Assembly (NCBI GenBank): GCA_007449985.2
Contig: VIIQ02000174.1
Coordinates: forward strand, 1-64,000
Origin: Desmodesmus armatus
Lineage: Eukaryota > Chlorophyta > Chlorophyceae > Sphaeropleales > Scenedesmaceae
Reading direction: 5' to 3'
DNA: 64,000 nt
Part shown: piece by piece, positions 1-62,000 of the stretch
Layout of the letters: each line of letters begins with the position of its first letter
Position numbering within the stretch: position 1 is the stretch's first letter
Translations under genes and position numbers: made by a program
The notes under the pieces: model-generated
Told to the model about the DNA's origin: nothing
Seen by the model: only the letters and a program-made list of their open reading frames with translations
Database searches by the model: none

Positions 1-189
1 GCTCACTTCAAGCTTGCTGACACTCACTGAATGAAGCTGGCGCGTATCGCTGATCGTGTGCTCTGGGATGCTGCGCATTCCACTGCTCCTGAAAGGCATC
101 CATGGCATCTGAGATGACGCCGTCTGCTTGTAGTAACACTTGACCGCACACACCCTTGCATCCCTGTGTACCTCGTCATTGGTCTTCAT
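1..189 (-). pseudogene. Tc1/mariner-type transposase, N-terminal fragment cut by the window edge
   Basis: The start codon lies at 189-187 on the minus strand and matches the start of the two fuller copies at 4516 and 8850. Only the first part of exon 1 (the helix-turn-helix region) is inside the window; the rest lies to the left. Compared with the other copies it has several one-base differences that shift the frame (near positions 16, 34 and 133), so it is either decayed or carries sequence errors. It shows that the array continues beyond the left edge. Confidence 0.75.
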
Positions 190-2341
190 ACCAGTGCTGG
201 CTGGCGAGACTGCAGAACAGCACAGAAGAGCAAGGAGGATCGGGCAGTGCAGCACAACAACATGAGGCAAGGCGCATCCAGTGCACACAACCCTGACTCA
301 AACCCTGGGTTGACTTTGTAACGTTAGTCCCTTCACTGCCCGGAGTAGGGAACTCAAGTGCCAGCTGGGGTCCGCTGCTGTCTCCAAACTTTCAGGAACC
401 AAACATGATTCTTTCGAAATGAGGTTGGCGTGCAAGAGCTCCACTGTAAGAAGTAACAGTTGAGTGGGTTCCGCACGACCCGCTGCTGCTGCCTGGGGCG
501 CTGAGAGGGCCTGGGAGCCGGTGTAAATGGGTCTTCCGAAGTGTATCAAAGCTTAGGAGGTGTTTTGCGGGGCTGCTGTGGGGTGTGCCGTGAGCGGGTC
601 TGGTGGGTGGTTGTTACAAGGGGCCGTGCCCTGCAGCTGCCTTGTTGCTGTGCAGCGAGGTGCCTTCTCATAGCCAAAGTTCACCCCTGCGCCTCGCATT
701 CACAGAGACTCACAGCGTACAGCCAGCTACTGCACGTGGTGGTTTGAGCAGTACTGATCCAGCAGACAGCACAGCAACTCCAGCGGACTCTGGCTTGCCC
801 ACATCCACGCTCAGGTTACAGGATGTCCTGTACAAGGCAAGTTGGCAGGGCAGGTGCCTGGCAGCAGTGAGGTCTTTCTGGGTGTAACAGCACAGCAGGC
901 TCAGGGACAAGCCCCAGCTGGTCACACTGTGGGTGCTGTTGCTGCCTGCACACTTGCATTTAGGGATGCCGGCATGCTCAGTGAAACAATAGATTTCTGG
1001 CACATACAGTACCAGTAGAGAGGGTTCCACGGGGGAGTGAAGTGAAATAACAGTCATGGGGTGGGGTGCTGCTGCCTGCATAGTCCAGTCCTGCTGCTGG
1101 GCAACAGGCAGCTCCTGACAAATGCTGCACTCACCTTGAACGCGTTTCAATATGGATGCTGCATGCTGCCAGGACCAAGTGACACAGTCGTTGCTGCCGC
1201 TGTTTGCCAGCCTGGCATGGAGCAGCAGCAAGCACAGAGCAGCATGTGTGTCAGTTGCTATCTTGTTGATTAGGAATGTTTAGTTTTGCATAGATCAGAC
1301 CAAATCAGAGGGGTGTGTGCACACAGTCTGGGTGGGTGATCACCATCCCAAATGCAGGCACTGCTGTTGTCACCATGAGCAGCAGTGCAGGAAGAGTCGC
1401 ACGTCATGCAACCCGCTTAATTGTGAAAGTACGGATCGGCATGTTCAGTTCACCCAGGAGCGCGCTTACCGAATGATTTTGGCGTGCCCACGGTGGTGTT
1501 GATGACAGAGCAGGGGTGTATCCAAGAAGCAATCGTAAGAGCTGCCCGGTGTGCACACAAAAGAACACGTTTTTGGCTGCATCCCCAACGCGCCGAATAG
1601 CCAGCGCGCGCTGTGCATGAGGCACAGTCATCCTGCTTACGTGGATCATCGTTTCAAACCACCTGCCAATTTGACAATAGTTTGCAGTGCAGTCCTGCTG
1701 TACAGGCCTTGTGCTAGTGTTTATGTCTGTCTCATTTGTTGCTGGACATGCACAACTTTAAGTAGGTGGTGAGGCAGCTGGAGATGCTGTGCTGAATGCA
1801 ACACCTTCAAGGCCAGGTGCAAAGCTGTCCATGCAGCAAGCAAAGCAAGCATCACTCCACAACAAAATTCCAACAAAGCGCGCGAGATGTTGCAAGGCAG
1901 CAATTGGCAGACCCCTATTGGAGAATGCACACTAGCCTGCAGAAGCAGGGGTTGTACTGCCGAGCGGTACAAGACATGCCTGCGCATTCGGCCCTGCCGC
2001 GCAACTTCAGGCAGCAAGGCTGACATAATATACACGTAATATACAACACACAAGCAAGATGTACATAACCAGCCACATCTGCTGGCCTACTCTACTGCCT
2101 ACTGACAGTGTGGTCCCACCCACCCCCCCATGCATTCCTAAACCCTACGCAGTGCACAGGGCCCACCCAGAGAGACAGAGGCTGCGCACGCGCTGCCAGC
2201 ACCACCAGGACACAGGTGCACCACCACAGCAAGACAAGGGCCCCTGCAAGGGGCCAGCAGCTGCATTGCAAAACATGGCAGGTGAGGGACCTGCAGCAGT
2301 AGCAGCCAAGGCCTTCAGCGGAAGCGCTTGGGTGGCCTGCC

Positions 2342-4516
2342 TCCCTCAACACCCTGATAACTGTGGCCATTAATGGTCACATCCTCCGTGGTTGGTGCTG
2401 CCACAACCTGGTAGCACTCCTTCAGCTGCTTCAGGCCACTCTCCACCTGCTGTGGGGTGATAGCTAGACACGTGACAGCACCATATCCCGCAACAGCTTC
2501 ACGTCCCCCTCAACAGCGACGTGCCAACCCTGCTTGTAAATATCAACCACCGTACCCTGCTTGACGTTAGCAAAGGGGTGCTCCACAATCTGATGCAGGT
2601 CAGGGCTGTACTTAGGCAGTTCTAACAGGTGCTCGTAACCTGTCTCATCGTCAACAAGGTTGCACAGATGCGGGTGCACATGGTGGAAGTTGGGGTTGTC
2701 CATGCTGAGCTTTGGCTCCCAGCCCTGCTCCTTTGCGCGCTTCACGCCTTTCTCGAAATAGCCCTCCATGAGGATGTCCGCAACCTCCGCTGCTGTGGCT
2801 GAGCTGGCTGGCTTAACATACTTGCTGTCCTTGGTCTGCGTGCAGGCGACACAGGGAGCAGAAGGGCAGCATTACTCAGCCAAGGGTTGGCAGCAGCACA
2901 ACACCTAAACCCTCATGTGAGCCGCAAGGGCCAGCTCTACTACATCACCCTGCAGGACGGCAAAGAAAAGCAGATCACCTGCAGTATGGAGGTACACAAG
3001 GTAGCAGTGGGGTGTACCTGTGAGGAGGGACATGTACGTTACTGCACGCCAAACAGCATCAGAGCCGAGCGCAACTTGCTGTGCCAGTTCTGTCACCATG
3101 CTGAGCAAGCATGGAAGTTGGCAAGGAGGCACAAGGTGGTGGAGTCAGAAAAGGCAGGCATGAAGGCCCTGAAAGATGTGGGTCTTGATGTGAGGGTGGC
3201 GTGTGAGGTGGCGCTGCCATTTTGGAAGGGGAGGGTTGACTTCTACGACATACCCAGCAAAACAGTCATCCAAGCAGATGGTAGGAGTCATCGTGTGCAG
3301 ATGCACAACATGCATGCACGGCAGCAGCTGAAGCTTGACCTGCGCTGCTGCCGCAAGGCGTGGAAGCATGGGGTCAGGCTACTGCGGTTGTACCACCCCC
3401 CGGCAGCAGGCAACAGCATGTGGGGTCAGGCTATGCTGGCTGCCACCAGGTTGCAGGCTGCTAAGTTTGTCACGCTGAGCAGCGAGTACGCAGACATAGT
3501 AGTTGATGCAGCACAGCAGCAGACATGCTGTGAGTGGCTTACTGCTGTGCTGACAGGGGCGGAGTACAGGTATGACGCAGCGGTGCAGTGCCACATCTGG
3601 CTTACCCGGTAACAACCCGTGCCCTTCTTCTTCTCGATGTCGCCCACCGCCTCGATCCTCGCCAGCTCAAAGTCCTTGCGACGCTCCATATGCTCGCGCA
3701 TGCCTGGGTTGTGGCGGCCCATGGTGTCGATATCTGTTGTGCCGGTCAGGAACTCAACATACACACACCCCAGGCGGGCATTCAGTATCAGCGCAAAGTC
3801 AATCCTCCTAGCGCCATGCAGCTCAAACATGGGGTTCTCCTCAGGGGGCTGACCTGCAAGCTTGCGCCTATCATACCACACCTTCAGCTTCCCAGCCAGA
3901 TCCATGTTGAACCAAATGCGGCACTCATCATACCAGAACACCCGCTTCAGGAAATCAGGATCCTCCTCTATGAACTTCAGCATCATCCCGCAGTATTGCA
4001 GCCGGGCCTCCATCACATCAACAGACAGTGGCAGCTTCATCGGCAGCACACCATACTTCAGCCAAGGCGCAACATCATGCAGCCTGCGCTCAACATACTC
4101 AGGCTTCAAGCCCTTGTCAGTGGTCAGTGCACGCAGGCGCGCCGACATCTGCAGGGCGTCAGACAGGCTGGTGAACTGCTTCAACTCCTCATACTCATGA
4201 CTGACCCCCTCCTCAGTCACAACCTGCTGCTGCATGTACCCCTCCGCTACTATGTCAGCGCACTTAACAGCATCATCGTCTGACAGCAGCTTCGGCCTCC
4301 CGTGCCCCACAGCATCGTGCAAGGTATGGCTCACTTCAAGCTGCTGACACTCAACTGAATGAAGCTGCGCGTATCGCTGATCGTGTGCTCTGGATGCTGC
4401 GCATTCCACTGCTCCTGAAAGGCATCCATGGCATCTGAGATGACGCCGTCTGCCTTGTAGTAACACTTGACCGCACACACCCTTGCATCCCTGTGTACCT
4501 CGTCATTGGTCTTCAT
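2342..4516 (-). pseudogene. Tc1/mariner-type DDE transposase, array copy A, frameshifted
   Basis: Same two-exon gene as the copy at 6646-8850, with exon 1 at 4516-3606, intron 3605-2836 (GTAAGC donor, CAG acceptor) and exon 2 from 2835 leftwards. Relative to copy B it lacks one T at about 4340 in exon 1 and one A at about 2471 in exon 2, and each loss shifts the frame. The first aspartate region (WYDE), the second (MDNPNFH) and the glutamate region (YSPDLHQIVEH) are all still encoded. Whether this is real decay or consensus error is open, since the rest of the copy is nearly identical to copy B. Its intron contains the intact antisense endonuclease-like ORF at 2986-3612. Confidence 0.8.
2986..3612 (+). 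CDS. Zinc-ribbon + PD-(D/E)XK (Vsr/DUF559-like) endonuclease, nested antisense in transposase intron
   Basis: This frame is open from 2803 to the TAA at 3610-3612; the first in-frame ATG is at 2986, giving 208 residues. Upstream codons also look conserved, so a longer or spliced 5' end is possible. Near the N-terminus a CTCEEGH motif, a further Cys and CQFC match the pattern C..GH....C..C of treble-clef zinc ribbons. A nuclease-like core follows: an acidic residue in CEVALPF, then GRVDFYD, then VIQADGRSH, and a D..R...G..LLR block. This resembles DUF559/Vsr nucleases with Gln in place of the usual Glu before the Asp. Vsr-like intron homing endonucleases are known from phages; homing here is inference. 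The ORF fills most of the transposase intron (2836-3605) on the opposite strand, and its stop codon overlaps the end of transposase exon 1. No bacterial-type signals are expected or seen. Confidence 0.72.
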   Translation: MEVHKVAVGCTCEEGHVRYCTPNSIRAERNLLCQFCHHAEQAWKLARRHKVVESEKAGMKALKDVGLDVRVACEVALPFWKGRVDFYDIPSKTVIQADGRSHRVQMHNMHARQQLKLDLRCCRKAWKHGVRLLRLYHPPAAGNSMWGQAMLAATRLQAAKFVTLSSEYADIVVDAAQQQTCCEWLTAVLTGAEYRYDAAVQCHIWLTR

Positions 4517-6645
4517 ACCAGTGCTGGCTGGCGAGACCTGCAGAACAGCACAGAAGAGCAAGGAAGGATCGGGCAGTGCAGCACAACAACATGAGGCAAG
4601 GCGCATCCAGTGCACACAACCCTGACTCAAACCCTGGGTTTGACTTTGTAACGTTAGTCCCTTCACTGCCCGGAGTAGGGAACTCAAGTGCCAGCTGGGG
4701 TCCGCTGCTGTCTCCAAACTTTCAGGAACCAAACATGATTCTTTCGAAATGAGGTTTGGCGTGCAAGAGCTCCACTGTAAGAAGTAACAGTTGAGTGGGT
4801 TCCGCACGACCCGCTGCTGCTGCCTGGGGCGCTGAGAGGGCCTGGGAGCCGGTGTAAATGGGTCTTCCGAAGTGTATCAAAGCTTAGGAGGTGTTTTGCG
4901 GGGCTGCTGTGGGGTGTGCCGTGAGCGGGTCTGGTGGGTGGTTGTTACAAGGGGCCGTGCCCTGCAGCTGCCTTGTTGCTGTGCAGCGAGGTGCCTTCTC
5001 ATAGCCAAAGTTCACCCCTGCGCCTCGCATTCACAGAGACTCACAGCGTACAGCCAGCTACTGCACGTGGTGGTTTGAGCAGTACTGATCCAGCAGACAG
5101 CACAGCAACTCCAGCGGACTCTGGCTTGCCCACATCCACGCTCAGGTTACAGGATGTCCTGTACAAGGCAAGTTGGCAGGGCAGGTGCCTGGCAGCAGTG
5201 AGGTCTTTCTGGGTGTAACAGCACAGCAGCTGCTCAGGGACAAGCCCCAGCTGGTCACACTGTGGGTGCTGTTGCTGCCTGCACACTTGCATTTAGGGAT
5301 GCCGGCATGCTCAGTGAAACAATAGATTTCTGGCACATACAGTACCAGTAGAGAGGGTTCCACGGGGGAGTGAAGTGAAATAACAGTCATGGGGTGGGGT
5401 GCTGCTGCCTGCATAGTCCAGTCCTGCTGGGGCAACAGGCAGCTCCTGACAAATGCTGCACTCACCTTGAACGCGTTTCAATATGGATGCTGCATGCTGC
5501 CAGGACCAAGTGACACAGTCGTTGCTGCCGCTGTTTGCCAGCCTGGCATGGAGCAGCAGCAAGCACAGAGCAGCATGTGTGTCAGTTGCTATCTTGTTGA
5601 TTAGGAATGTTTAGTTTTGCATAGATCAGACCAAATCAGAGGGGTGTGTGCACACAGTCTGGGTGGGTGATCACCATCCCAAATGCAGGCACTGCTGTTG
5701 TCACCATGAGCAGCAGTGCAGGAAGAGTCGCACGTCATGCAACCCGCTTAATTGTGAAAGTACGGATCGGCATGTTCAGTTCACCCAGGAGCGCGCTTAC
5801 CGAATGATTTGGCGTGCCCACGGTGGTGTTGATGACAGAGCAGGGGTGTATCCAAGAAGCAATCGTAAGAGCTGCCCGGTGTGCACACAAAAGAACACGT
5901 TTTTGGCTGCATCCCCAACGCGCCGAATAGCCAGCGCGCGCTGTGCATGAGGCACAGTCATCCTGCTTACGTGGATCATCGTTTCAAACCACCTGCCAAT
6001 TTGACAATAGTTTGCAGTGCAGTCCTGCTGTACAGGCCTTGTTGCTAGTGTTTATGTCTGTCTCATTTGTTGCTGGACATGCACAACTTTAAGTAGGTGG
6101 TGAGGCAGCTGGAGATGCTGTGCTGAATGCAACACCTTCAAGGCCAGGTGCAAAGCTGTCCATGCAGCAAGCAAAGCAAGCATCACTCCACAACAAAATT
6201 CCAACAAAGCGCGCGAGATGTTGCAAGGCAGCAATTGGCAGACCCCTATTGGAGAATGCACACTAGCCTGCAGAAGCAGGGGTTGTACTGCCGAGCGGTA
6301 CAAGACATGCCTGCGCATTCGGCCCTGCCGCGCAACTTCAGGCAGCAAGGCTGACATAATATACACGTAATATACAACACACAAGCAAGATGTACATAAC
6401 CAGCCACATCTGCTGGCCTACTCTACTGCCTACTGACAGTGTGGTCCCACCCACCCCCCCATGCATTCCTAAACCCTACGCAGTGCACAGGGCCCACCCA
6501 GAGAGACAGAGGCTGCGCACGCGCTGCCAGCACCACCAGGACACAGGTGCACCACCACAGCAAGACAAGGGCCCCTGCAAGGGGCCAGCAGCTGCATTGC
6601 AAAACATGGCAGGTGAGGGACCTGCAGCAGTAGCAGCCAAGGCCT
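4517..6645. other. Array-unit spacer between transposase genes
   Basis: This stretch lies upstream of transposase copy A and downstream of copy B and should hold the element ends. The minus frame stays open for 97 codons upstream of the transposase ATG, but a CAG before the likely first coding exon suggests that this is a 5' leader or intron rather than protein. A minus-strand frame at about 5797-5979 (1404-1649 in the first copy) reads as plausible protein of up to 80 residues but is shifted between copies and matches nothing I recognise. AT-rich sequence with repeated TATACACGTAATATAC occurs at about 6358. No RNA gene or terminal inverted repeat was seen. Confidence 0.5.
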
Positions 6646-8850
6646 TCAGCGGAAGCGCTTGGGTGGCCTGCCTCCCTCAACACCCTGATAACTGTGGCCA
6701 TTAATGGTCACATCCTCCGTGGTTGGTGCTGCCACAACCTGGTAGCACTCCTTCAGCTGCTTCAGGCCACTCTCCACCTGCTGTGGGGTGATAGCTAGAC
6801 AACGTGACAGCACCATATCCCGCAACAGCTTCACGTCCCCCTCAACAGCGACGTGCCAACCCTGCTTGTAAATATCAACCACCGTACCCTGCTTGACGTT
6901 AGCAAAGGGGTGCTCCACAATCTGATGCAGGTCAGGGCTGTACTTAGGCAGTTCTAACAGGTGCTCGTAACCTGTCTCATCGTCAACAAGGTTGCACAGA
7001 TGCGGGTGCACATGGTGGAAGTTGGGGTTGTCCATGCTGAGCTTTGGCTCCCAGCCCTGCTCCTTTGCGCGCTTCACGCCTTTCTCGAAATAGCCCTCCA
7101 TGAGGATGTCCGCAACCTCCGCTGCTGTGGCTGAGCTGGCTGGCTTAACATACTTGCTGTCCTTGGTCTGCGTGCAGGCGACACAGGGAGCAGAAGGGCA
7201 GCATTACTCAGCCAAGGGTTGGCAGCAGCACAACACCTAAACCCTCATGTGAGCCGCAAGGGCCAGCTCTACTACATCACCCTGCAGGACGGCAAAGAAA
7301 AGCAGATCACCTGCAGTATGGAGGTACACAAGGTAGCAGTGGGGTGTACCTGTGAGGAGGGACATGTACGTTACTGCACGCCAAACAGCATCAGAGCCGA
7401 GCGCAACTTGCTGTGCCAGTTCTGTCACCATGCTGAGCAAGCATGGAAGTTGGCAAGGAGGCACAAGGTGGTGGAGTCAGAAAAGGCAGGCATGAAGGCC
7501 CTGAAAGATGTGGGTCTTGATGTGAGGGTGGCGTGTGAGGTGGCGCTGCCATTTTGGAAGGGGAGGGTTGACTTCTACGACATACCCAGCAAAACAGTCA
7601 TCCAAGCAGATGGTAGGAGTCATCGTGTGCAGATGCACAACATGCATGCACGGCAGCAGCTGAAGCTTGACCTGCGCTGCTGCCGCAAGGCGTGGAAGCA
7701 TGGGGTCAGGCTACTGCGGTTGTACCACCCCCCCGGCAGCAGGCAACAGCATGTGGGGTCAGGCTATGCTGGCTGCCACCAGGTTGCAGGCTGCTAAGTT
7801 TGTCACGCTGAGCAGCGAGTACGCAGACATAGTAGTTGATGCAGCACAGCAGCAGACATGCTGTGAGTGGCTTACTGCTGTGCTGACAGGGGCGGAGTAC
7901 AGGTATGACGCAGCGGTGCAGTGCCACATCTGGCTTACCCGGTAACAACCCGTGCCCTTCTTCTTCTCGATGTCGCCCACCGCCTCGATCCTCGCCAGCT
8001 CAAAGTCCTTGCGACGCTCCATATGCTCGCGCATGCCTGGGTTGTGGCGGCCCATGGTGTCGATATCTGTTGTGCCGGTCAGGAACTCAACATACACACA
8101 CCCCAGGCGGGCATTCAGTATCAGCGCAAAGTCAATCCTCCTAGCGCCATGCAGCTCAAACATGGGGTTCTCCTCAGGGGGCTGACCTGCAAGCTTGCGC
8201 CTATCATACCACACCTTCAGCTTCCCAGCCAGATCCATGTTGAACCAAATGCGGCACTCATCATACCAGAACACCCGCTTCAGGAAATCAGGATCCTCCT
8301 CTATGAACTTCAGCATCATCCCGCAGTATTGCAGCCGGGCCTCCATCACATCAACAGACAGTGGCAGCTTCATCGGCAGCACACCATACTTCAGCCAAGG
8401 CGCAACATCATGCAGCCTGCGCTCAACATACTCAGGCTTCAAGCCCTTGTCAGTGGTCAGTGCACGCAGGCGCGCCGACATCTGCAGGGCGTCAGACAGG
8501 CTGGTGAACTGCTTCAACTCCTCATACTCATGACTGACCCCCTCCTCAGTCACAACCTGCTGCTGCATGTACCCCTCCGCTACTATGTCAGCGCACTTAA
8601 CAGCATCATCGTCTGACAGCAGCTTCGGCCTCCCGTGCCCCACAGCATCGTGCAAGGTATGGCTCACTTCAAGCTTGCTGACACTCAACTGAATGAAGCT
8701 GCGCGTATCGCTGATCGTGTGCTCTGGATGCTGCGCATTCCACTGCTCCTGAAAGGCATCCATGGCATCTGAGATGACGCCGTCTGCCTTGTAGTAACAC
8801 TTGACCGCACACACCCTTGCATCCCTGTGTACCTCGTCATTGGTCTTCAT
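6646..8850 (-). CDS. Tc1/mariner (IS630) superfamily DDE transposase, array copy B, intact
   Basis: Two exons, 8850-7939 and 7167-6646, separated by a 771-base intron with a GTAAGC donor and TGCACGCAG acceptor in matching phase, give 477 residues. Residues 1-75 look like a helix-turn-helix DNA-binding region ending in GHGRP, the usual GRPR-type linker. The catalytic domain shows D197 in FWYDECR, D350 in SMDNPNFH and E389 in YSPDLHQIVEH, the hallmark LP.YSPDL..IE block; D350 to E389 has 38 residues between them by my count. The C-terminus ends in a basic RPPKRFR, a possible nuclear signal. The ATG at 8850 is chosen because it begins the recognisable domain and upstream codons contain a splice-acceptor-like CAG. 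It should cut and paste its own element. The intron holds a second gene on the other strand. Confidence 0.85.
7318..7945 (+). pseudogene. Zinc-ribbon + PD-(D/E)XK endonuclease, array copy B, frameshifted
   Basis: Second copy of the intron-nested gene at 2986-3612. It is nearly identical but has seven instead of six Cs in the run at about 7729-7735, which shifts the frame shortly after the nuclease core and leads to a stop at 7795-7797. The zinc ribbon and the D, QAD and D..R nuclease residues lie upstream of the shift, so the truncated product would keep the predicted active site and lose about 70 C-terminal residues. A one-base change in a C-run is the commonest sequencing or consensus error, so this copy may be intact in the cell. 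Confidence 0.7.
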
Positions 8851-9707
8851 ACCAGTGCTGGCTGGCGAGACCTGCAGAACAGCACAGAAGAGCAAGGAAG
8901 GATCGGGCAGTGCAGCACAACAACATGAGGCAAGGCGCATCCAGTGCACACAACCCTGACTCAAACCCTGGGTTTGACTTTGTAACGTTAGTCCCTTCAC
9001 TGCCCGGAGTAGGGAACTCAAGTGCCAGCTGGGGTCCGCTGCTGTCTCCAAACTTTCAGGAACCAAACATGATTCTTTCGAAATGAGGTTTGGCGTGCAA
9101 GAGCTCCACTGTAAGAAGTAACAGTTGAGTGGGTTCCGCACGACCCGCTGCTGCTGCCTGGGGCGCTGAGAGGGCCTGGGAGCCGGTGTAAATGGGTCTT
9201 CCGAAGTGTATCAAAGCTTAGGAGGTGTTTTGCGGGGCTGCTGTGGGGTGTGCCGTGAGCGGGTCTGGTGGGTGGTTGTTACAAGGGGCCGTGCCCTGCA
9301 GCTGCCTTGTTGCTGTGCAGCGAGGTGCCTTCTCATAGCCAAAGTTCACCCCTGCGCCTCGCATTCACAGAGACTCACAGCGTACAGCCAGCTACTGCAC
9401 GTGGTGGTTTGAGCAGTACTGATCCAGCAGACAGCACAGCAACTCCAGCGGACTCTGGCTTGCCCACATCCACGCTCAGGTTACAGGATGTCCTGTACAA
9501 GGCAAGTTGGCAGGGCAGGTGCCTGGCAGCAGTGAGGTCTTTCTGGGTGTAACAGCACAGCAGCTGCTCAGGGACAAGCCCCAGCTGGTCACACTGTGGG
9601 TGCTGTTGCTGCCTGCACACTTGCATTTAGGGATGCCGGCATGCTCAGTGAAACAATAGATTTCTGGCACATACAGTACCAGTAGAGAGGGTTCCACGGG
9701 GGAGTGA

Positions 9708-9950: not shown

Positions 9951-11504
9951 ATGCTGCACATGTCAGCATCTGCTTACACAGTGGCAGTAGATGCAGGGGT
10001 TGCACAACGTGCACAGGTGCATGCCTACAGGGTTGCATGCCCTAATCAAGTCAGGTGGTCAAGGGGGTGCCGCGGAGACAGCTGCCTGGTGCAGGGCGCC
10101 ACGAGCAGCCCAGGTGTGGAGTCCCGCCCGGCTCCTGGGCCCCTGACAGCTGCCTTCGTCAAGTTGCTGCAGCAGCACACTCCAAGCAGGATGCTGCTGC
10201 AGGGCAATGAAGCTCTACTGCACAGTGGCCCCAGCAGCGACCTCAACCTACAGCAACTGCACCACACCAACCAGCTGCTGCAGTGTGCTGCCCAGCTGGC
10301 ACCGCAGTTTCAGCCGCACCAGGCCTCACTCATCCTGTATGTTTGTGCCAAATGCCAGCTGCCGTGCACCCAGCAGCTGCTGCACGGCCTGATGCAGCAG
10401 CTGCAGCCCAGCCAGCTGCAGCAGCTGCCGCCTGCAGGCCTTGTAAATGCTGCATGGGCTCTTGCAGTCCTGCAAGCAGACCCTGGTGCCGCATGGATGG
10501 ACGCCTTCTATGTCATGGTTGGCAGCAGCTTCACTTCCGGCAGGCAAGGACAGCACCCAGTGGATAGCATCCAGAGTGAGACCACAGCAAGCAGTACATG
10601 CAGCACAGGGGAGCGCAACAACAGTGGGAGCAACAGCAGTGGCGGCAGGAGTGATGCCTCAATGGCAGCAGTGTTCAACAGGCACCAGCTGGTGCAGCTG
10701 CTGTGGGCTGTGGCTAGGTTGAAGCGGCGGCCTCCTGCAGCATGGCTGCAGGACCTGCTGTCAGCATTGCAGCAGCAGCTACAGGTGCTTGCTGCTACAG
10801 AGCTCACCAATGTGATCTGGGCACTCGCGCAGGTCGGTTTCCGGCCGGGGCGGGTGTGGTTGCAGGCCTGGTTCCTGGCCAGCCGGTGCGCCCTGCCCAC
10901 CTGCAGTGCAGACACCCTGGCTTGCCAGGCGGCCAGCTTGGGGGTGCTGCGAGTCACACTCAGCAACGGCAGGTGGCTGGTGGCGTTCAGGGCGGCCACG
11001 GTGCAGCAGCTGCATGCGCTGCTGCCGCGCCACATCGGGTCCATCTTCTGTGGCCTTGCCAAGCGCCGCAGCCCCGCTCCACCCCACTGGGTGAGGCTGT
11101 TGCTGCTGCAATCGCTGCAGCTGATGGAAGCCGGGGTGGGCGCTCAAGTGAACAGCACCAGGGGCTCCTGCGAGGAGGCTTCTGACTCCTCTGCGTGCAA
11201 CGTGGCAGCCATCGTGTGGTCGCTGCCGCTGCTGCTGTACCCCACTGCAATCGAATGGGCTGCGCAGCAGGACAATGCAGCACTGCTGAAGCGCCTTGCG
11301 GCTGCCAGCCTGCCGTTGCTCACTCAGTGCAGTGTAGGGCAACTGGTGCAGCTGGCCGTGGGGTTTGCAAGGCTGGGGTTCTATCCTGGTGTTCACTGGC
11401 TGAAAAGCCACGAGAATGCAGTAGCGCAGCACAAGCTGTCACTCACAGATGTCAACAGGCTGCGGTTACAGGTTGCAGCAAGGCAGCTCTGGAAGGATGG
11501 CTAA
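9951..11504 (+). CDS. OPR (octatricopeptide repeat) type organelle RNA-binding protein
   Basis: A single open frame of 517 residues, preceded by an in-frame stop immediately before the ATG. It holds spaced repeats with the OPR signature of a hydrophobic helix followed by P..W: PGAAWMDAF, PPAAWLQDLL, PGRVWLQAW, PPHWVRLLLL and PGVHWLKS, each preceded by an A.A.W.LA or V.L.WA.A helix such as LVNAAWALAVL and LTNVIWALAQVG. OPR proteins are nucleus-encoded factors that bind specific organelle transcripts in chlorophycean algae and act in RNA stability, splicing or translation. The first 70 residues could be an organelle transit peptide, though basic residues are not dominant. A serine/glycine/asparagine-rich insert lies near residues 205-240. 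No C-terminal RAP domain is seen. Target RNA and organelle cannot be told. Confidence 0.72.
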   Translation: MLHMSASAYTVAVDAGVAQRAQVHAYRVACPNQVRWSRGCRGDSCLVQGATSSPGVESRPAPGPLTAAFVKLLQQHTPSRMLLQGNEALLHSGPSSDLNLQQLHHTNQLLQCAAQLAPQFQPHQASLILYVCAKCQLPCTQQLLHGLMQQLQPSQLQQLPPAGLVNAAWALAVLQADPGAAWMDAFYVMVGSSFTSGRQGQHPVDSIQSETTASSTCSTGERNNSGSNSSGGRSDASMAAVFNRHQLVQLLWAVARLKRRPPAAWLQDLLSALQQQLQVLAATELTNVIWALAQVGFRPGRVWLQAWFLASRCALPTCSADTLACQAASLGVLRVTLSNGRWLVAFRAATVQQLHALLPRHIGSIFCGLAKRRSPAPPHWVRLLLLQSLQLMEAGVGAQVNSTRGSCEEASDSSACNVAAIVWSLPLLLYPTAIEWAAQQDNAALLKRLAAASLPLLTQCSVGQLVQLAVGFARLGFYPGVHWLKSHENAVAQHKLSLTDVNRLRLQVAARQLWKDG

Positions 11505-32000: not shown

Positions 32001-35000
32001 AACAACTTCTTGCTGGACTCAGCTCACGTCCTGGACCTGATGACGCGAACTTGGGTCGATGTGAGTGCAGCGCCATGGGCGGGGTTGCTCACAGTACAGC
32101 AGATCTTGTGGTTGCTCTGAAGACAGCTCGCCTTCCATCAGGCAGCCATTCCCACCGTCATCTGCTGTTTCCTGCCTGTCCTGCGCAGATCTGTGCAGTG
32201 GGCACAGCACCTCCCCCGCGACATGGACACCTGCTGCATGTGCACAATGACCTGCTGTACGTCTTTGGGGGCTTGAACGACCTGGGTGTCACTACAGCCA
32301 CACTGTTCCGAGCGGTTCTGTCCCGTCAGCAGGTGGACAGGGCGTGTGCCACTGCCAGCGCAGCTGCCTTTGGTGACACCGTCGCCACTGTGGGAGGCGA
32401 CAGCAACCAGCAGGTCCCAGGTGCTGGGGGCGATGCAGGGGGCCTGGCTGCGGGCCCCAACAGCACTGCTGCTGTGCTGCAACTGGAGTGGCAAGAGCTG
32501 GAGGCTGACCTGCCTTACAACAAGAGCAGGGCAACGGTCCTGCAGCAGGGGCAGATGCGATGCTACCAGCTGGGGTCTGCAACATTGGGCAGGTCCATCA
32601 ATGAAGACGACGCTGAGAGAGGTAGGTGAAGATATCAATTGGTGTTGCTCACCTGCTTGACCACTGCACATCAGGCAGGACAGCCCTGCACTGCACAGAG
32701 TGCTATCGAGGCCGCCCCACCACTTGGTGGCGGCACCCTGCTCACATAGCCATGATATTCTGTTCTGGGGGTTTCTCTTTGTGTTTGTTCGCATTCCTGC
32801 CTTGTGCCTCCTGCTTTGTGCCTCCTGCAGGCCTAGCCTTCTGGGATGTGTACAAGACTGCACCCCTGAACAACTTCAACCCAAAGGCCGGTGCCTTCTC
32901 TTCACAAACCGGCAGTGAAGCTGTGCAGCGCCCTTCAGCAGCAACCAGCAAGGCGAGCCGTGTGCAGCACGCCACCCACAGTGCAGGCAAGCTGCCAGCC
33001 AGTTTCACCAGCAACAGTCCCAAGGAGCAGCAACTGCTGGCATACATTGCAGACTTCCAGCGTGTCTTCCAGGAGCGTTACCCCCACAGGTGCTGCGACG
33101 GCTGCACCCCAACTCCCCCTGGGCTTTCAGCCAGGATCACAATCACACATGGTTCTGCATGACACAGATAGGTTGTATGTATCATGCATACAACCTATCT
33201 ACATAACATGATGTTGTTTAGTGGTGTTGTGCTGTGCTGTGCTGTGTTGTGTTGTGCTGTGTTTGTGTTGTGTTGTGTCAATTCAGTCCAGAGGCTCTAG
33301 CGTGCTGCCTATCAGTGACGCGTGCTGCCTACCATTCATGGCCAAATGCTGTTGCTGACTTGTGTGGCCTGCTTGCAGGAGGCCACTGCCCCTGGCACCT
33401 CTGAATGAGTGCGGGGTGCCCAAGTTTGTGTGCACCACCCTGCACCCAAGTCTACCACCATTCCCTGAGCTGTACATGCTGGAGTCGTGTGCCAGGTTTG
33501 TGTCAGACATCCTCACGTACGAGCCATTGTCCAGCCCCCTGCACCCACCAAGCCACTTCCCGAGCCCTATGTCGGTTCTGGCTTGGCAGACTGCTGATGC
33601 GTTTGATGCCTCCATGGTGTTGTGCTCACTGCTGCTTGGTGCTGGCTACAACGCCTTTGTGGTGATGGGCTACGCCACCCTGCAAGTCACTATCAATGAC
33701 CAAAGCGCCGTTGAGTGTCCCCTGTCAGACCATCAGCCATGCGTGTGGTGGACGACAACAATTGCAGCTGGGGCAGCCGCCTCGGCTGCAGCAGCTGCTG
33801 CCCCTAGTGGCTCCAGCACAGGGGCAGGGGCCAAGGGACAGGGCAGCACCAGCAATGGCACCAGCAGTGCAGCAGCGCCTTCTGGAGGTGGAGGGGCAGT
33901 TCCCAGCAGCTCAGCTGGGGGTGCTAGCAGCGGCAGCAAACCTGCTGCTGGTGTGGTGGCTGCTGATGAGCCTGGCAAGCGCAAAAAGTACCAGATCAAG
34001 TCCACACCTGAGCTGGCCAGCAAGTTTCTGCAGGAACACCCACAGGACAGGCTGGCCAGTGAGGATGGTAGGCCAGCTGGGACTGAGGCGGCCATTGAAG
34101 CCGAAGTGAGCCAGGTGAGCTTGTCAACACAGCGTGCTCTTGCACGTTGTACACAAGCGACTGGACAGTGTGTGGTGCTGATCCTGCCTGCATGCGCTGA
34201 AATTGCTTTTTTTGGTCCAGGCGTTGCACACCTCCTGGTATAGGGTGTGCGGCGTCCCTCATCGGTGAGGCTTTGCCTCCGTCCCCCGGCAGTCGAGTTT
34301 ACTCGGCTGAGTTGTGTGTGGCCAGCCGGTGGGGGGTGCGCCCCCCTGGAACCTTCAAAAAAATTTGCTCACCCTGCATACAAATGCTGTTATTGGCTGA
34401 GGCTGTGTGCTGCAATGACTTTACATGAGGCTGGTACGCATGTGCGTGCAGTTGTTGCTGCGTGACAGCACCAGCAACTGTGCAGGAGCGCTTCCTTCAG
34501 CAGGCACAGACAGTGCAGCACAGGAGCAGCAGGAGCAGCAGCCACGTGCAGGGGTTGGACAACAGCCCGACTTACTGCCAAGCAAGCTGGTGCATGCCTG
34601 GGTGCTGGTGCTGCCGGGCAAGCGCGAGGTGCGCCTGCAAATGTCGACCTGTGATGGACCATCACCATGTTCCGGCTGTCTGCAACCGTGAAGCAGACAG
34701 TTCAGGGGTGACTGCTGTTGGCACCTTGTGCTGCTGCACACGGTCCATACATCCACCATAATTATGTGGGTTTCTTGCAGGTGATGCAGCCTGTCTTTGT
34801 CGAATCGTCAACAGGCAGGCTCATCGATCCTGCTGGTGTGAGTTGCCCTTACACCGGTGTGGAGATGGTCTGGAATGCCAGCAATGCTTGGATCTGCATG
34901 CAGGTTTGTGAGAGGTGTCCTTGTGGCTGGGAACATTGCAGCGCATTCTGGCACCACGGTGGGGCCACAATGCATGAAACACTCAATTCATGCACCAGTC

Positions 35001-38000
35001 ATCCCGTGTGTCATGGTGCTGCATGGTGTGCATTGTACGCCATGCATGCGGTACGCTTTGAGGCAGGCCAACTAAGTGGCAGTCCTGAGAGCGTGACCTT
35101 GCTGTCCGGGCATTGCAGGCGCCTGAATCTCACTCAGACTCACGGGCGGCCCCCGGCATCATCAACTGGGACCTCAGCAACTCAGCGCTCTGGGAGGCAG
35201 TCCTGGATGAACACCAAACACGGTGAGCTGCGCGGTATCAGTGGTGACACCAGCCGCAACTTGCAAGTTTGTTTTATAACCTAGTAATGTCCCCACTGGC
35301 AGTGCCTGAGGGTTTGTGGCGCACGGCCCATCTGCCGACATCGCTGCCCTTCTTTCTTCTGCCTTGGTGCACAAGAAGTCGTCACAGGTAGCAGCATTGG
35401 TGTGTGTTTTGTGGCAATGAGCACCTTTTGTGGCATGTTCCCCACTATGGCGCAATGGTGTGCCCGCAGATCTACTCAAACTGACGTCGTGCAAGACACT
35501 CGTGGCTGCAGCAACCTGGCAGGCGCAGCATCGCGCACAGGCCTAACAACATCCATGGTGCATGCCAGCGCCAGCTTGGCTGTCAGCAGCGTGCTGGGTG
35601 GTGGGCGGCCCCACACCCCCACCCTCAGTACAACAAACCTGCCACGCACTGCCACACCTACCACTGTGGGCTTGGTGCCCGGCAATGGTGGCATTGCTGC
35701 ACAGCTGTCGCGGGTTGGGAGCAGAGTGCATCTTGCAGCTGCAAACACCACAGGTGAGTTTGTCTGGGATGTATGCACTTCTTGCTGCTGCTTGCCAGAT
35801 GGGGTGTGGGCGCGGGTACTGCAAGGAACCAACACATGAGAACAATCACAGTTATGAGCTCCGCGCCGACTGGCTGTGCAACCGTCGCAGCCGTGCTGTA
35901 CCTGTGCTGGCTGTTTGCCAGCTGGCATGCAAGTGTTTGTCCTCTGCACCTGGTGGAGCGTGACAATGCTGGCCGGTCACATCGTACAAGTCCACCCGCT
36001 GGTCACGCCTGAGGATGTACGGCCTGTGCTGCAGGCAGCAACCCAGGGGCCGGCCTAGCGGCAGCTGCTGGGGCTTCCCCCCCCACACCTGGCCGGCCTG
36101 ACAGCAGTAGCCGCGCTCCAGGAGGCGTCACAGTGGATGTGTCAGCAGTGGGCCCTGCACCAAGTGTGGGTGGCGGGTATGCTGGCAGAGGGCCCCCGTC
36201 TGAGTATGCCAGGTGTGAAGACCGTATGCTGGTGGTAGTCTACCCTATGGTTGTACAGGGCACAAACGGCGCGCAGAATACATGCTGGAGTTGCCGTTTT
36301 CTAGCCACCACACTCACTTATGCACGTAGCGTATGCATTGCCTATGTTGCATGACTTATGCCATCCAACATGTGTCCACAAGGTCATGCCCCAGTTCCAG
36401 TGAGCCAAAAGAGCTGACCTGACCTGACCTGAAGCTTGGCACTACCCGAGTGTGCACCCTACCTGTGGTTGCTGGTACAGGTCGGAGTATGCCCGCAGTG
36501 AGATGGGTGACGGCAGCGCCGTGTGCGGGTCTGGCTCAGCCGACGAGCCTGGTCCAGAATTTGACCTGCTGCCAGACTTGCCGCCCAGCTGGGTGCCAAA
36601 GCTTGTGGTGTCCGGGACATGATGGACATGCGCTGCCCCAGGGTGCGGAGGGTCATGCGTGGAGTGAGCAGTGGTCACAGCCCATCCCAACCTGACACCT
36701 GATGAAGAACACATCAGAAGCGCGTGTCACCTGTGTGCTGACAGCACGTGCTTTCTTGCATGCGTGTCCCTGGCAACATCAAGTGCTTGTGTCCACCAAC
36801 TTTGGCTGCAGGGGTTGCGCACCACGCTATATTGCCGCTGCACTCATGAAATCTTTGCCCCCTTTGGCGAATGTGCGCGCTGGGACGGCCTGATTGAGCG
36901 CCTCACAAGGTTTGCAGACGACGCACGGCATGTGGTTGAGGAGGTGAGAGCTGGGACACTTTGCTGAGCTCCCCTTGCTTGGGCCGTCTGCATGACAGTG
37001 ATGTGGTGATGGTGTGTCATCAACTGTCTGTCGTGTTGGCCTGTGAGGTAGATAGTCCATCACTGCTGCCCGACCCCGGCCGCACTGATTCCCTTGACAA
37101 CCAGGTGCATGAAACGTTCGCGCGACGCAAGGACAAGCTGAAGGAGCGGCACACCTTCCCCACACAGCACATTGTGCAGGTGAGCCTGCAGCCCCGACCT
37201 GTGGCCATGGGCATCAGCCAGAAAGTGTCCTTGTGGCAGTGATGCCAGTTGCACTCCGGTGCGGTGCTGTTGATCAACGTGCAAGCATCTTGACAGTACA
37301 TATCGTGATCAGCACCAGCATTTGTTGCAATGAAGGCCTTGCTGTTGGCTGCCGCTGGCTGCGTGCCAAACCGCAGGAGCTGTTTGACCAGGGCAGTCTG
37401 TTCTCTGTCAAAGAGCTGCGTGTGGTGCGTGGTGAGCGGCGGGACATCACCTTCTACGCGGCAGCCCGGCTGGACGGCCTTGTGCGCCGTGACGAGGTGT
37501 TTGGCGCCAAGCTCACCGAACACTTTGCGGGCAGGGAGGATCACCTTGTGTACCGCAGCGCAACGTTTGGCGGGGCTGCTGGAGAGGTGGCTGGCGAGGG
37601 GGCAGCTGGTGGTGCTGCAGCCACAAGCAGTGATGAACAACCAGCACTGTTCGGCACAGGTGCTGTGGGCTCCCAGCCTTTGCAGTCAGCTGCAGGTTAT
37701 GGCCTGCAGAGTCAGGCACCACTGCAGCAGCAGGTGCGGGCCTTGCCGGTCATCAAGGTCACTCAGAAGTTCAAGCGCAATGCAGCCAAGCCAGCAGAGA
37801 AGGATGTGGCGAAGCAGGTGTACCATCTGGCACTCGGCAAAATTATTGTGCAGTTCCACCATGTGGATGACAAGCTGACTGCAGGCTACCTGTCCTTCCA
37901 CAGGGATGGTGCCGCACAAGCCGTGCAGGTGAGCAGCAGCATGCCAAGCACGTGCATCCAACTCCACGTGCAATGGCATGTGTAGCTGCAGTGCGCATAC

Positions 38001-59107: not shown

Positions 59108-59428
59108 GGCAACAGTTGGCTTCACATGGACATGGAGCACTGTGCAAGCATGACTAGAGGACGTCGACGGCTTCAAATATTGCCATCATGGGCAACATAG
59201 AACGATCAATGGCTCATACAGGCTGAGAAGGGGAAAACACAAGTGGAAAGGTGATCAGAAGAGTGATGCTGCCCGGGCATCGCTACTGCATGGAAAGTAG
59301 AATTCTGTGTTGCAGTTTGCTGCGCGATACGTCCGCGACTCATAGCTTCAGCACATCTGAGGCCCTGAGCACACACACCTCAAGGCTGAGGGCCACCAGG
59401 GAGGGTTCGCAGCTTGCAACGTTCCGAC

Positions 59429-62000
59429 ATGCAACGTGTGCTAGTACCAGTAGTGGCAGGCCAAAGCGCAGACAGGCTCCTGCTGGCCGCTCTGTGGCAG
59501 CACCTTGCAGCAGCAGCACCCCAGCATAGTTGCTCACGCCACTTTGCTGCAGTGGCGCTGCAGCAGCCAGTGTGGGATCTGTCAGCGGGTCCGATCTTGG
59601 ATGTTTGTAGCTACAACAGTACCCCAACCCACAGGAGCAGTGGCCACGCCCATACCCTCTGCCACACCCAGGACAGCAGCGCAGATGCGGCCCAGCAGAA
59701 GGTTAGCTGTCAGCAACAGCAACATGCCCACAGCCTGCTGGATCAACAGCAGCAGCAGCAGCAGCTGCAGGACCATCAGGCACAAGACCAGCACCTGCAG
59801 CGCTGGCGGAGCTTGGCGCAGCTTTCAGCGCAGGATGCCCGGCAGCTGTTGCAGCAGCATGCCTCGCTGCAGACATACCTGCAGCACAGCAACCTCCCAT
59901 CCAACTACTTTGCCAATGTGGCATGTCTCACCCTGCACCCGACGGAGTTGACTCCTCGGAGCTCCAAGCTGCAGGGTCTGCTGGCCCTTGTGCCACCCCG
60001 CTTGCTGCAGCAGCTTGTGGGACAGAATTCACACATGCAGCAGGCCATGGAACACCAGCAGCAGCAGTGGCAGCATTTGTCACAGCTGCAGGATCGGCTG
60101 CTGCACTCCCTGCAGCGGCACCAGCGGTCGACCCCGGGTGCGGCACAGCAGGCTGCTGGCGTGCAAGTGACACAGCCCCTGCAATCCTACTCGGGGTCTG
60201 GCCCTGGCATGCAGCAGTTGCAGGCCAGGGCGGCCCCACAGTGCAGCCACAACCGCTTCCTGCAGCTCGCAGAGGCTGTGGTGACAGCACTGGGCCTGTC
60301 GACGGACAGCCAACCAGCGGATGCCCGAGAGCTGCGGTTGCTGCAGAAGGCTGCAAGGATAGCTGACTGCAGCAGCGGCAGCCCCAGAAGCAGCAGCAGT
60401 GGCAGCAGTAGTTGCAGCAGCAGCAGCAGTGCCAGCTCACATCGGGCCTTCTCCACGAGTGCACCCGCTCTGACCTTCACTCAGGGCCTTGCCTCGGCCC
60501 TGGAGGCGACCGCCAAGGCAGGCCATCTGCGGCGCAAGCCGTTGCACGACGCCACAGTTGCAGCAGAGCTGGCACGCCAGCTGCACCAGGCGTACAGCTC
60601 AGACCATAGCAAGGTGTTGCGGCTCCTGCTGTCGAGGCCAGCCATGCTGTGGCAACATAAATCAGCCACGCTTCCGCTGCAGGTGCTTTCAGACCTGCAG
60701 CGCCTGATACCCGGGCTGGGCGAAGGGCAGGGGCTGCAGCTGGTGGTGAAGCAGCCCCGCGTGCTTGGTTGTGGCAGTGGCCAGCTGGACAGTGTTGTGG
60801 ACATGCTGGTTAGCCGGCTGCAGCTGAACCAGTCCCAGCTTGCAAAGCTGGTGCTGCAGCACCCACAGGTGCTGGTGCAGCCTGTGCAGCAGATGGTGCC
60901 CAACATTGGCTTCCTGGTTGGGGTGGGCCTCTCACCAGGAGACCTGCAAGCCATGGCCGTGGGGAACCCCACGTGGCTGACCAGTCCCTTGCGAGACCTG
61001 ATGACTCAGTGGCAGTTCCTGCAGCAGGTGTTGAAGCTGGTGAGCGCATCGCACATTACCCAACTATCAATCTTAACCTTATGTGTGTGTGGCGCGTCAG
61101 CTCATACACAGCAGACCATGGGTTGGTGTAGATGCACTTTCAGCTGGCTACTGCCTGTGTGTGGCCTGGTGCGACAGCTTCGTCCTGATTGGCATGGTGT
61201 GGCAGCTGTGGTGCGCTTGGGTGCGTGTTGGCATGGATTATAATGTCAAGGTGGGGTCTGTCTGCTGTGCATGTGCTGCTGACACCTGCAGGGCTGCCAG
61301 CAGGACCTTGTGGTCTTCCCCCAGCTGTTGACGCTGCCCATCAAGTCCCGCCTGGGCCCGCGCGTGCTGTATGCACGCAAGCGCAACATCAAACTGCTCG
61401 CGCCCTGCTTGTCTGCACCCTCCTCGGGCTCCGCCAAGGCCTGGAGGCAGCACCGAATGGTGCCTCTGAACGTCTGGCTGTCGGCGTCGGACAGGGAGAT
61501 GAGTGCGCTGATGGACCTTGACCTGGGGGACTACCAGAGGTGGGTGTGGCTCATATACCGGCATGCGGGGCATGGTCCTGGAAGTTTTGAGGTGCTTGAG
61601 ATGGGGCTGCAGACGTGTTGGTAGTCTTTGACCGCTGTAGTAAATAGCAGTGGTGGCTTGTCAGCAGCAAGCTGGCTGGTTTGGAGTCACCACTTATGCA
61701 GCCATGGGCCTGGCCTGGACGTACCTAGGACAGCCATCTTGTGAGGGTTGTCAGCCAACTGCATATCCTGTGTGTTGGCAGAGACACTGCTTCCCAATCC
61801 CACATAAACAGCACTGCATGTTTTTTTCAGTGGTAGTGCTCTGCTCTCGCCATGTGCAGTATGCTTGGATGCCGCCTGTGATCGACTGGAGGCATGCGCT
61901 GTTTGACGTTGTGCCATCCTTGCTGTCCTTATCTGCCCACAGGTTCAAGCAAGCCTGGGGTCGTGTTGAAGGTGTGACCTGGCAGCACAGAGGCTGTTAG
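59429..62000 (+). CDS. mTERF-family organelle protein
   Basis: Member of the mitochondrial transcription termination factor family, helical-repeat proteins that bind organelle DNA or RNA. Exons: 59429-61039, 61292-61539 and 61943-62000, in phase, 638 residues. The ATG at 59429 starts a basic, Ala/Gln-rich leader consistent with organelle import. Residues 90-340 are Gln/Ser-rich with long CAG tracts and little structure. mTERF repeats begin near residue 390, with the usual hydrophobic helices ending in P: LLLSRPAMLW, LQLVVKQPRVLG, KLVLQHPQVLV, LQAMAVGNPTWL and DLVVFPQLLTLPIKSRLGPR, the last being the typical F/YP..L...L..R.RPR block near the C-terminus. Exon 3 adds 19 residues of weak character, so the true 3' end may differ. 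It runs convergently to the transposase at 62870. Whether it goes to chloroplast or mitochondrion is not clear. Confidence 0.87.

Follow-up and report, generated by a model that had tools for sequence, protein, structure and literature searches.

A candidate composite transposon of Desmodesmus armatus with a predicted Vsr-type nuclease antisense in the predicted intron of a mariner-type transposase

The window, i.e., the whole stretch of 64,000 nucleotides analysed here (contig VIIQ02000174.1 of Desmodesmus armatus, contig C170 in our numbering), opened with a tandem array whose units encoded a predicted transposase on the minus strand and a predicted Vsr-type nuclease on the plus strand of one core, with direct repeats on its flanks. 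Judged from sequence comparison, these units are fairly probably a composite DNA transposon, in which the nuclease likely cuts its own element so that repair builds head-to-tail arrays. The pairing of both enzymes on opposite strands recurred in four element families of the genome and in metagenome relatives, as expected for the two-enzyme mobile unit put forward in the original prediction, which had been made from the letters of the window.

Self-BLAST placed the array across positions 1-9704, with a unit of about 4.33 kb (offset 4328, 99.7% identity). Comparison with other contigs of the genome assembly searched (115.8 Mb, 831 contigs) showed this unit to be made up of two parts, a core (C) of 3.6 kb and a module (M) of 0.65-0.71 kb, the latter being a direct repeat with inverted ends. 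The order in the window was partial C (1-334), M (335-1037, plus strand), C (1038-4664), M (4665-5370, plus strand, between both cores), C (5371-8998) and M (8999-9704, plus strand). The right end of the last M was also the right chromosomal end of the array, and the flank beyond it was unrelated. The nuclease frame at 2803-3612 belonged to one of the two units of this array; the composite element, with its direct repeats, inverted ends and M(CM)n arrays, had been missed by the original prediction.

The transposase gene of copy 1 consisted of exon 1 (3606-4502, minus strand, the upper limit being that of the stop-to-stop frame), carrying the first catalytic D, and exon 2 (2315-2835, minus strand), carrying the second D and the E. 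The predicted spliceosomal intron between them (2836-3605, minus strand, 770 nucleotides) displayed GT-AG ends, CGG/GTAAG at 3605 and CGCAG/ACC at 2836 (slash at the exon border), and was in phase 0 as read on the copy of contig C717 (L039), which had identical ends and all parts open. Copy 2 held a predicted intron of 771 nucleotides (7168-7938, minus strand) and an open exon 2 frame (6646-7167, minus strand). A predicted GT-AG intron in phase 0 was found at the homologous place in family A, to which the window belongs, and in families B and D (770, 799 and 848 nucleotides, respectively), and the donor site was read in the fourth family, E (L075). The splice signals and matching phase described for the window were thereby confirmed. 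The two-exon gene held as to exons, ends and phase, but copy 1 of the window was broken by frame changes near 2470 in exon 2 and near 4340 in exon 1, and the nuclease frame of copy 2 was disrupted after about codon 200. Each break is a minor difference close to the end of a contig and could be an error of assembly.

The spliced transposases of families A, B and D aligned along their length, with identities to B of 39% for D and 25% for A. All three (3/3) matched the NCBIfam IS630 profile, with a best E of 4.4e-7, although far below its curated cut-off (22.5 of 100 bits for one match), and the catalytic D, D and E expected of the DDE transposase first proposed could be placed in each of them (D2-E spacing of 38, 45 and 43). 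No C/DxxH motif occurred between the second D and the E in the A, B or D transposases. Since the IS630 profile was matched, the D-D-E residues were placed and C/DxxH was absent, the transposase is IS630/Tc1/mariner-like by its predicted catalytic domain, yet its target duplications were of 3 bp (CCA, CCT, GGT, CTC, CAG) and not the TA of that superfamily. Matches to DDE_3 were all below the cut-off (E 0.0026-0.11, the lowest for exon 2 of copy 2), the Protein Data Bank (PDB) match of the transposase profile, SETMAR, was suggestive only (E 0.023), and HTH_32 of Pfam was found in 4 of 15 exon-1 relatives (best E 0.0048). The structure model of exon 1 was left unused (mean pLDDT 52.7).

Between 2803 and the stop codon at 3610-3612 the plus-strand frame was open over 269 codons (stop to stop), and its counterpart in copy 2 lay at 7135-7942 on the same strand. 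Simple base shuffling of the intron, repeated 2000 times, gave a fully open frame in any of the six in only 3 cases, which agrees with the antisense gene that had been proposed to fill it. Residues C71, H77, C94 and C97 of the product form a predicted zinc ribbon, and E116, D146, D159, the His of DGRSH and D179 a predicted Vsr-like core, so the reading as zinc ribbon plus Vsr/DUF559-type core was upheld. Among 5.8 billion proteins, 21 matches to this product were obtained, one being the window's own product and 20 showing 41-81% identity. E116, D146 and D159 were invariant in the 21 aligned nucleases and D179 was present in at least 90%. The predicted fold of the nuclease matched that of Vsr-like enzymes. 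A Pfam and NCBIfam scan of the window frame gave no nuclease match, and one relative alone (P0021) touched DUF559, with E 0.0029 and 17.9 bits, under the cut-off of 20.6; a PDB sequence search yielded Mis18-alpha as its single match, a weak one (E 0.034). In the window frame, ATG first occurred at codon 62, and positions 2863-2865 read AGG where relatives start with ATG (MAALLSQG); the start of the window nuclease may lie in an upstream exon or at codon 62, or may be lost. Codon positions 1 and 2 were more alike than position 3 among the B, D and E nucleases, and frame breaks were present in many copies.

The genome contained four element families, A, B, D and E. Searches gave at least 147 matches to the window frame, at least 144 to exon 1 of family D, at least 154 to a nuclease piece of E (213 residues) and at least 158 to the B nuclease, all lower bounds from the best 143-150 of 378-440 candidates scored per search. 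Among the exon-1 matches covering at least 200 residues (136 of the 144 from the family D search, stops or partial matches counted), 131 had an opposite-strand nuclease match downstream, 110 by the listed window-frame and E-nuclease matches and 21 by B-nuclease matches; the remaining five, to which no nuclease match was assigned (C682 twice, C336, C680 and C558), are not evidence of nuclease absence. In families A, B and D the antisense frame sat inside the intron of the transposase; in E, for which the antisense nuclease and the donor were read in L075, it lay beside exon 1.

Unit periods were about 4.33 and 3.63 kb in family A, 4.29 and 3.62 kb in B, 4.67 (with an extra 361-bp piece), 4.31 and 3.66 kb in D, and 4.23, 3.55 and 2.50 kb in E, those of E and the 4.31 kb of D being taken from match spacings. 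Long and short units differed by M in A, B and D. The module of B measured 673 bases, the B element map being read from core and positions. Elements occurred as solo M, M-C-M, M(CM)n and M-C-C-M. Contig C193 held ten complete nuclease matches and a family E derivative (L075, C193:30601-33160) with a 2502-bp unit, in which exon 1 was kept and no recognisable exon 2 was present among the frames read; arrays of family E on this contig persist without an intact transposase. Contig C531 carried family A units on the plus strand to ~26 kb and, past a decayed unit, on the minus strand between ~28 and 46 kb, either a pair of arrays that face one another or a fold-back made in assembly. Some outer units near contig ends (C716:145903, C156:17320, C531:28183) were 42-61% matches with stops, reflecting decay or unpolished sequence. 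One D unit bore the 361-bp insert in exon 1 (L049:3012-3372), with an inverted repeat at its right end, possibly another small mobile element.

The modules of family B ended in a perfect 22-bp inverted repeat, CAGTGGGGCAAAAAGTAACTTG, and those of A and D in shorter or imperfect ones; the ends began with C, so they were not 5'-RR..YY-3' termini. Insertions could be read on both flanks in nine cases, and an exact 3-bp target duplication was found in six of them, including the solo M of contigs C542 (CCA), C73 (CCT) and C6 (CCT), the M-C-C-M of C682 (GGT) and the M-C-M of C283 (CTC). The C-C junctions read TTC/TGAAG in A, GTGC/GCAC in B and CAGT/GTGAAGG in D, deviating by one to three bases from a clean C-to-C join. 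Such junctions would be the expected footprint of M excision, a direction of change that we infer from the sequences.

The antisense pairing also appeared outside this genome. Exon 1 of family B had 16 relatives in metagenome or read-archive assemblies, of which one was 100% identical. Assemblies of the same kinds also yielded 13 additional relatives of the nuclease; in one of these searches, scoring covered the 7996 candidates with the most shared words. Nine of 37 proteins tested carried an antisense reading of the partner gene as a tail, into exon 2 in P0014 and P0016 and into the nuclease in P0022-P0026, P0028 and P0032; the shortest tails measured 20 residues, and the reversed sequences used as controls produced no match at E 0.01. 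P0022 adds little because it is identical to family B. The antisense pairing is therefore older than this genome. The longest listed contig was at most 4568 bases in all 50 protein clusters and corresponded to one unit (3.6-3.7 or 4.27-4.57 kb) in 18 of them, a ceiling that points to arrays, or circles, in the relatives too. Among viral contigs, 22 stretches matched a search pattern and none encoded a relative.

In the mechanism that we propose, the transposase would act on the inverted ends of M and could carry M, M-C-M or M(CM)n. It might also remove one M and leave a C-C junction. The nuclease would make a double-strand break in or beside M, and repair from a neighbouring M of a sister copy would gain or lose a C-M unit and homogenise the copies. 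This is the life cycle proposed in the available text on the KolobokP transposons of animals (PMC9587614), adopted here for the algal elements. Nesting in the intron would hold both genes on one block, and opposite-strand transcription might, as a speculation, set them against each other and make their expression mutually exclusive.

Several observations weigh against such a composite, self-cutting element. The sixth target duplication, CAG at the M-C-M of family D on contig C530, is less certain, as CAG is also the start of M, and the flanks were unmatched at three of the nine insertions, on contigs C75 (GTA and GCA), C719 (CCA and TGG) and C200 (AAT and TTG). The last is a solo M of family A, which leaves the family of the window with no demonstrated target duplication. 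The D copy on contig C18 (L051) had M at its right end and a left end inside C. For the nuclease, the His of DGRSH was absent in 3 of 21 aligned sequences (P0017-P0019), the TM-score to Vsr was 0.30 by query length, fold matches spanned mainly residues 96-269, and no solved structure reached E 0.001 or better. Codon position 1 was not clearly more alike than position 3 in family A pairs, and ratios of nonsynonymous to synonymous change (dN/dS) within the genome rested on too few differences, some pairs exceeding 1. The contig ceiling seen in the relatives would fit circular DNA too, and unequal crossing-over can build arrays without any nuclease.

This last point is the basis of an ordinary tandem amplification of the transposon, with an antisense frame lacking present function. 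Unequal crossing-over is common in repeats, and frames were broken in many copies; this reading is nonetheless highly improbable, as the frame and most of its active-site residues were kept across families and the 20 relatives, and the codon-position pattern of B, D and E (not A) points the same way. Only marginally less doubtful is a nuclease gene living as a homing parasite of the transposon, sheltered in its intron. Its housing there, its near-universal presence (131 of 136 exon-1 matches) and a fold like that of homing enzymes would suit such a parasite, but no nuclease-free family was found among the four read, and the identities of nuclease and transposase dropped in parallel, A being the most distant in both, which speaks, from identities and not from trees, for joint descent. 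The nuclease might also share the cutting with the transposase, in the way that TnsA, a PD-(D/E)XK enzyme, does with TnsB in Tn7; this role we hold to be improbable, though a shade less so than the parasite.

A better, still unlikely, candidate is a role like that of TnpB or Fanzor. In the retention model of TnpB, the nuclease cuts the empty site so that the element is restored. Here it would cut the site left by the element or by M, repair would restore the element, and the arrays would be a by-product. C-C junctions resembling footprints of M excision do exist, and transposon-borne TnpB (PMC8612924) and Mariner elements with extra endonucleases (PMC3627910) are described in the texts available. 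Insertion sites varied, however, and a guide-less nuclease of fixed sequence could therefore not recognise each empty chromosomal site; only the C-C junctions were constant within a family. Two other readings were dropped. Plasmids existing solely as circles were rejected because the arrays adjoin unrelated flanks, several with target duplications, and a subtelomeric origin was set aside without being rejected, the contigs listed with TTTAGGG tracts (100 of 105 places listed) differing from the array contigs seen.

The closest counterpart of the composite transposon that we favour is KolobokP, which is reported from seven animal phyla and encodes its homing-type nuclease on the strand opposite to its DDE transposase (Kojima and Bao 2022, PMC9587614). 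According to the available text, KolobokP has long direct repeats with terminal inverted repeats (TIRs; ~450 or ~660 bp), multimers and solo repeats, and its junctions without a repeat carry small deletions; its transposase is a Kolobok, its nuclease is I-PpoI-like and lies downstream, and a life cycle of transposition plus nuclease-induced unequal crossover was proposed, for which the authors await experimental validation. The elements described here share with it, as far as that text extends, an internal region enclosed at both ends by long direct repeats, each with TIRs of its own (perfect over 22 bp in B, imperfect in A and D), the repeat length (~660-bp class; autonomous KolobokP families of oyster are 4.0-4.7 kb), solo repeats as well as multimers, junctions that lack a repeat and carry small deletions, target duplications of short length (here 6 of 9, none for A) and a nuclease on the strand complementary to the DDE transposase. 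They differ from it, on the same text, in an IS630/mariner-type transposase without the Kolobok C/DxxH signature (A, B and D) or 5'-RR..YY-3' termini, a Vsr-like nuclease with zinc ribbon instead of an I-PpoI-like His-Me enzyme, nesting in the transposase intron (A, B and D) instead of a downstream position, and hosts that are probably green algae instead of animals. Membership in Kolobok was rejected on both transposase signature and nuclease position. The elements resemble KolobokP in working but fall outside it and are a new variant of composite, homing-assisted transposon, which apparently evolved independently, since the transposase and nuclease families differ.

Other known systems shared single traits. 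EDxHD homing nucleases have their catalytic residues in the order E...D...H...D. The predicted nuclease resembles this I-Bth0305I family in its Vsr fold match and acidic catalytic residues, and homing enzymes bear extra DNA-binding parts such as zinc fingers, whereas the members in the available text are phage-type and none is antisense in a transposase intron (PMC3943268). Tc1/mariner elements with extra endonucleases, and Fanzor, are described from algal viruses (Bao and Jurka 2013, PMC3627910). In them, too, one element carries an endonuclease gene beside that of a mariner-type transposase, but they have GIY-YIG or EcoRII-like nucleases and Fanzor, with TA duplications, and their available text describes neither direct repeats nor tandem arrays nor nesting in an intron. 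Transposons with TnpB, a transposon-borne nuclease, or Fanzor also have a second DNA-cutting enzyme aboard (PMC8612924, available text). Among the papers listed from a subset of the open-access literature, judged by title or abstract start, no algal composite element of this kind and no nuclease nested antisense in a transposase intron was found, and KolobokP was the only lineage of such design. The earlier statement that no element of this layout is described thus fails for the opposite-strand enzymes, repeats and multimers, which KolobokP shares, and stands for the intron nesting and this enzyme pair, without a described match in our searches; the two-engine design was known there only from animal elements that are apparently unrelated. 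TnpB and Fanzor themselves are RNA-guided RuvC nucleases, in contrast to the predicted Vsr-type nuclease of the present elements.

Beyond the array, a frame for a FAST-kinase-like protein (9951-11504, below cut-off) lay directly beside its end. Frames at 33359-37985 matched a CEP76 peptidase-like domain (below cut-off) and DRC7 MORN (E 2.8e-27), and are probably one ciliary dynein-regulatory gene. An mTERF protein was encoded at 59390-61243. A G+C content of 52-62%, the TTTAGGG tracts and the ciliary DRC7 match all point to a probable green algal host.

On balance, we lean towards the view that a transposition-plus-homing machine evolved twice, the elements described here being a second, independent class in which the mover is a mariner-type transposase and the multiplier a Vsr-type homing nuclease, antisense in the spliceosomal intron of the former, the two being inherited as a block and expressed against each other. 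If apparently unrelated enzymes share the architecture of KolobokP, down to a nuclease encoded opposite to the transposase, this would be a recurring solution, and the probably unicellular algal host would allow the KolobokP-type life cycle to be tested. A spliceosomal intron would, if this is true, be a safe place for a homing-type gene, and the mechanism would offer an explanation for multi-kilobase tandem arrays that otherwise resemble satellite DNA.
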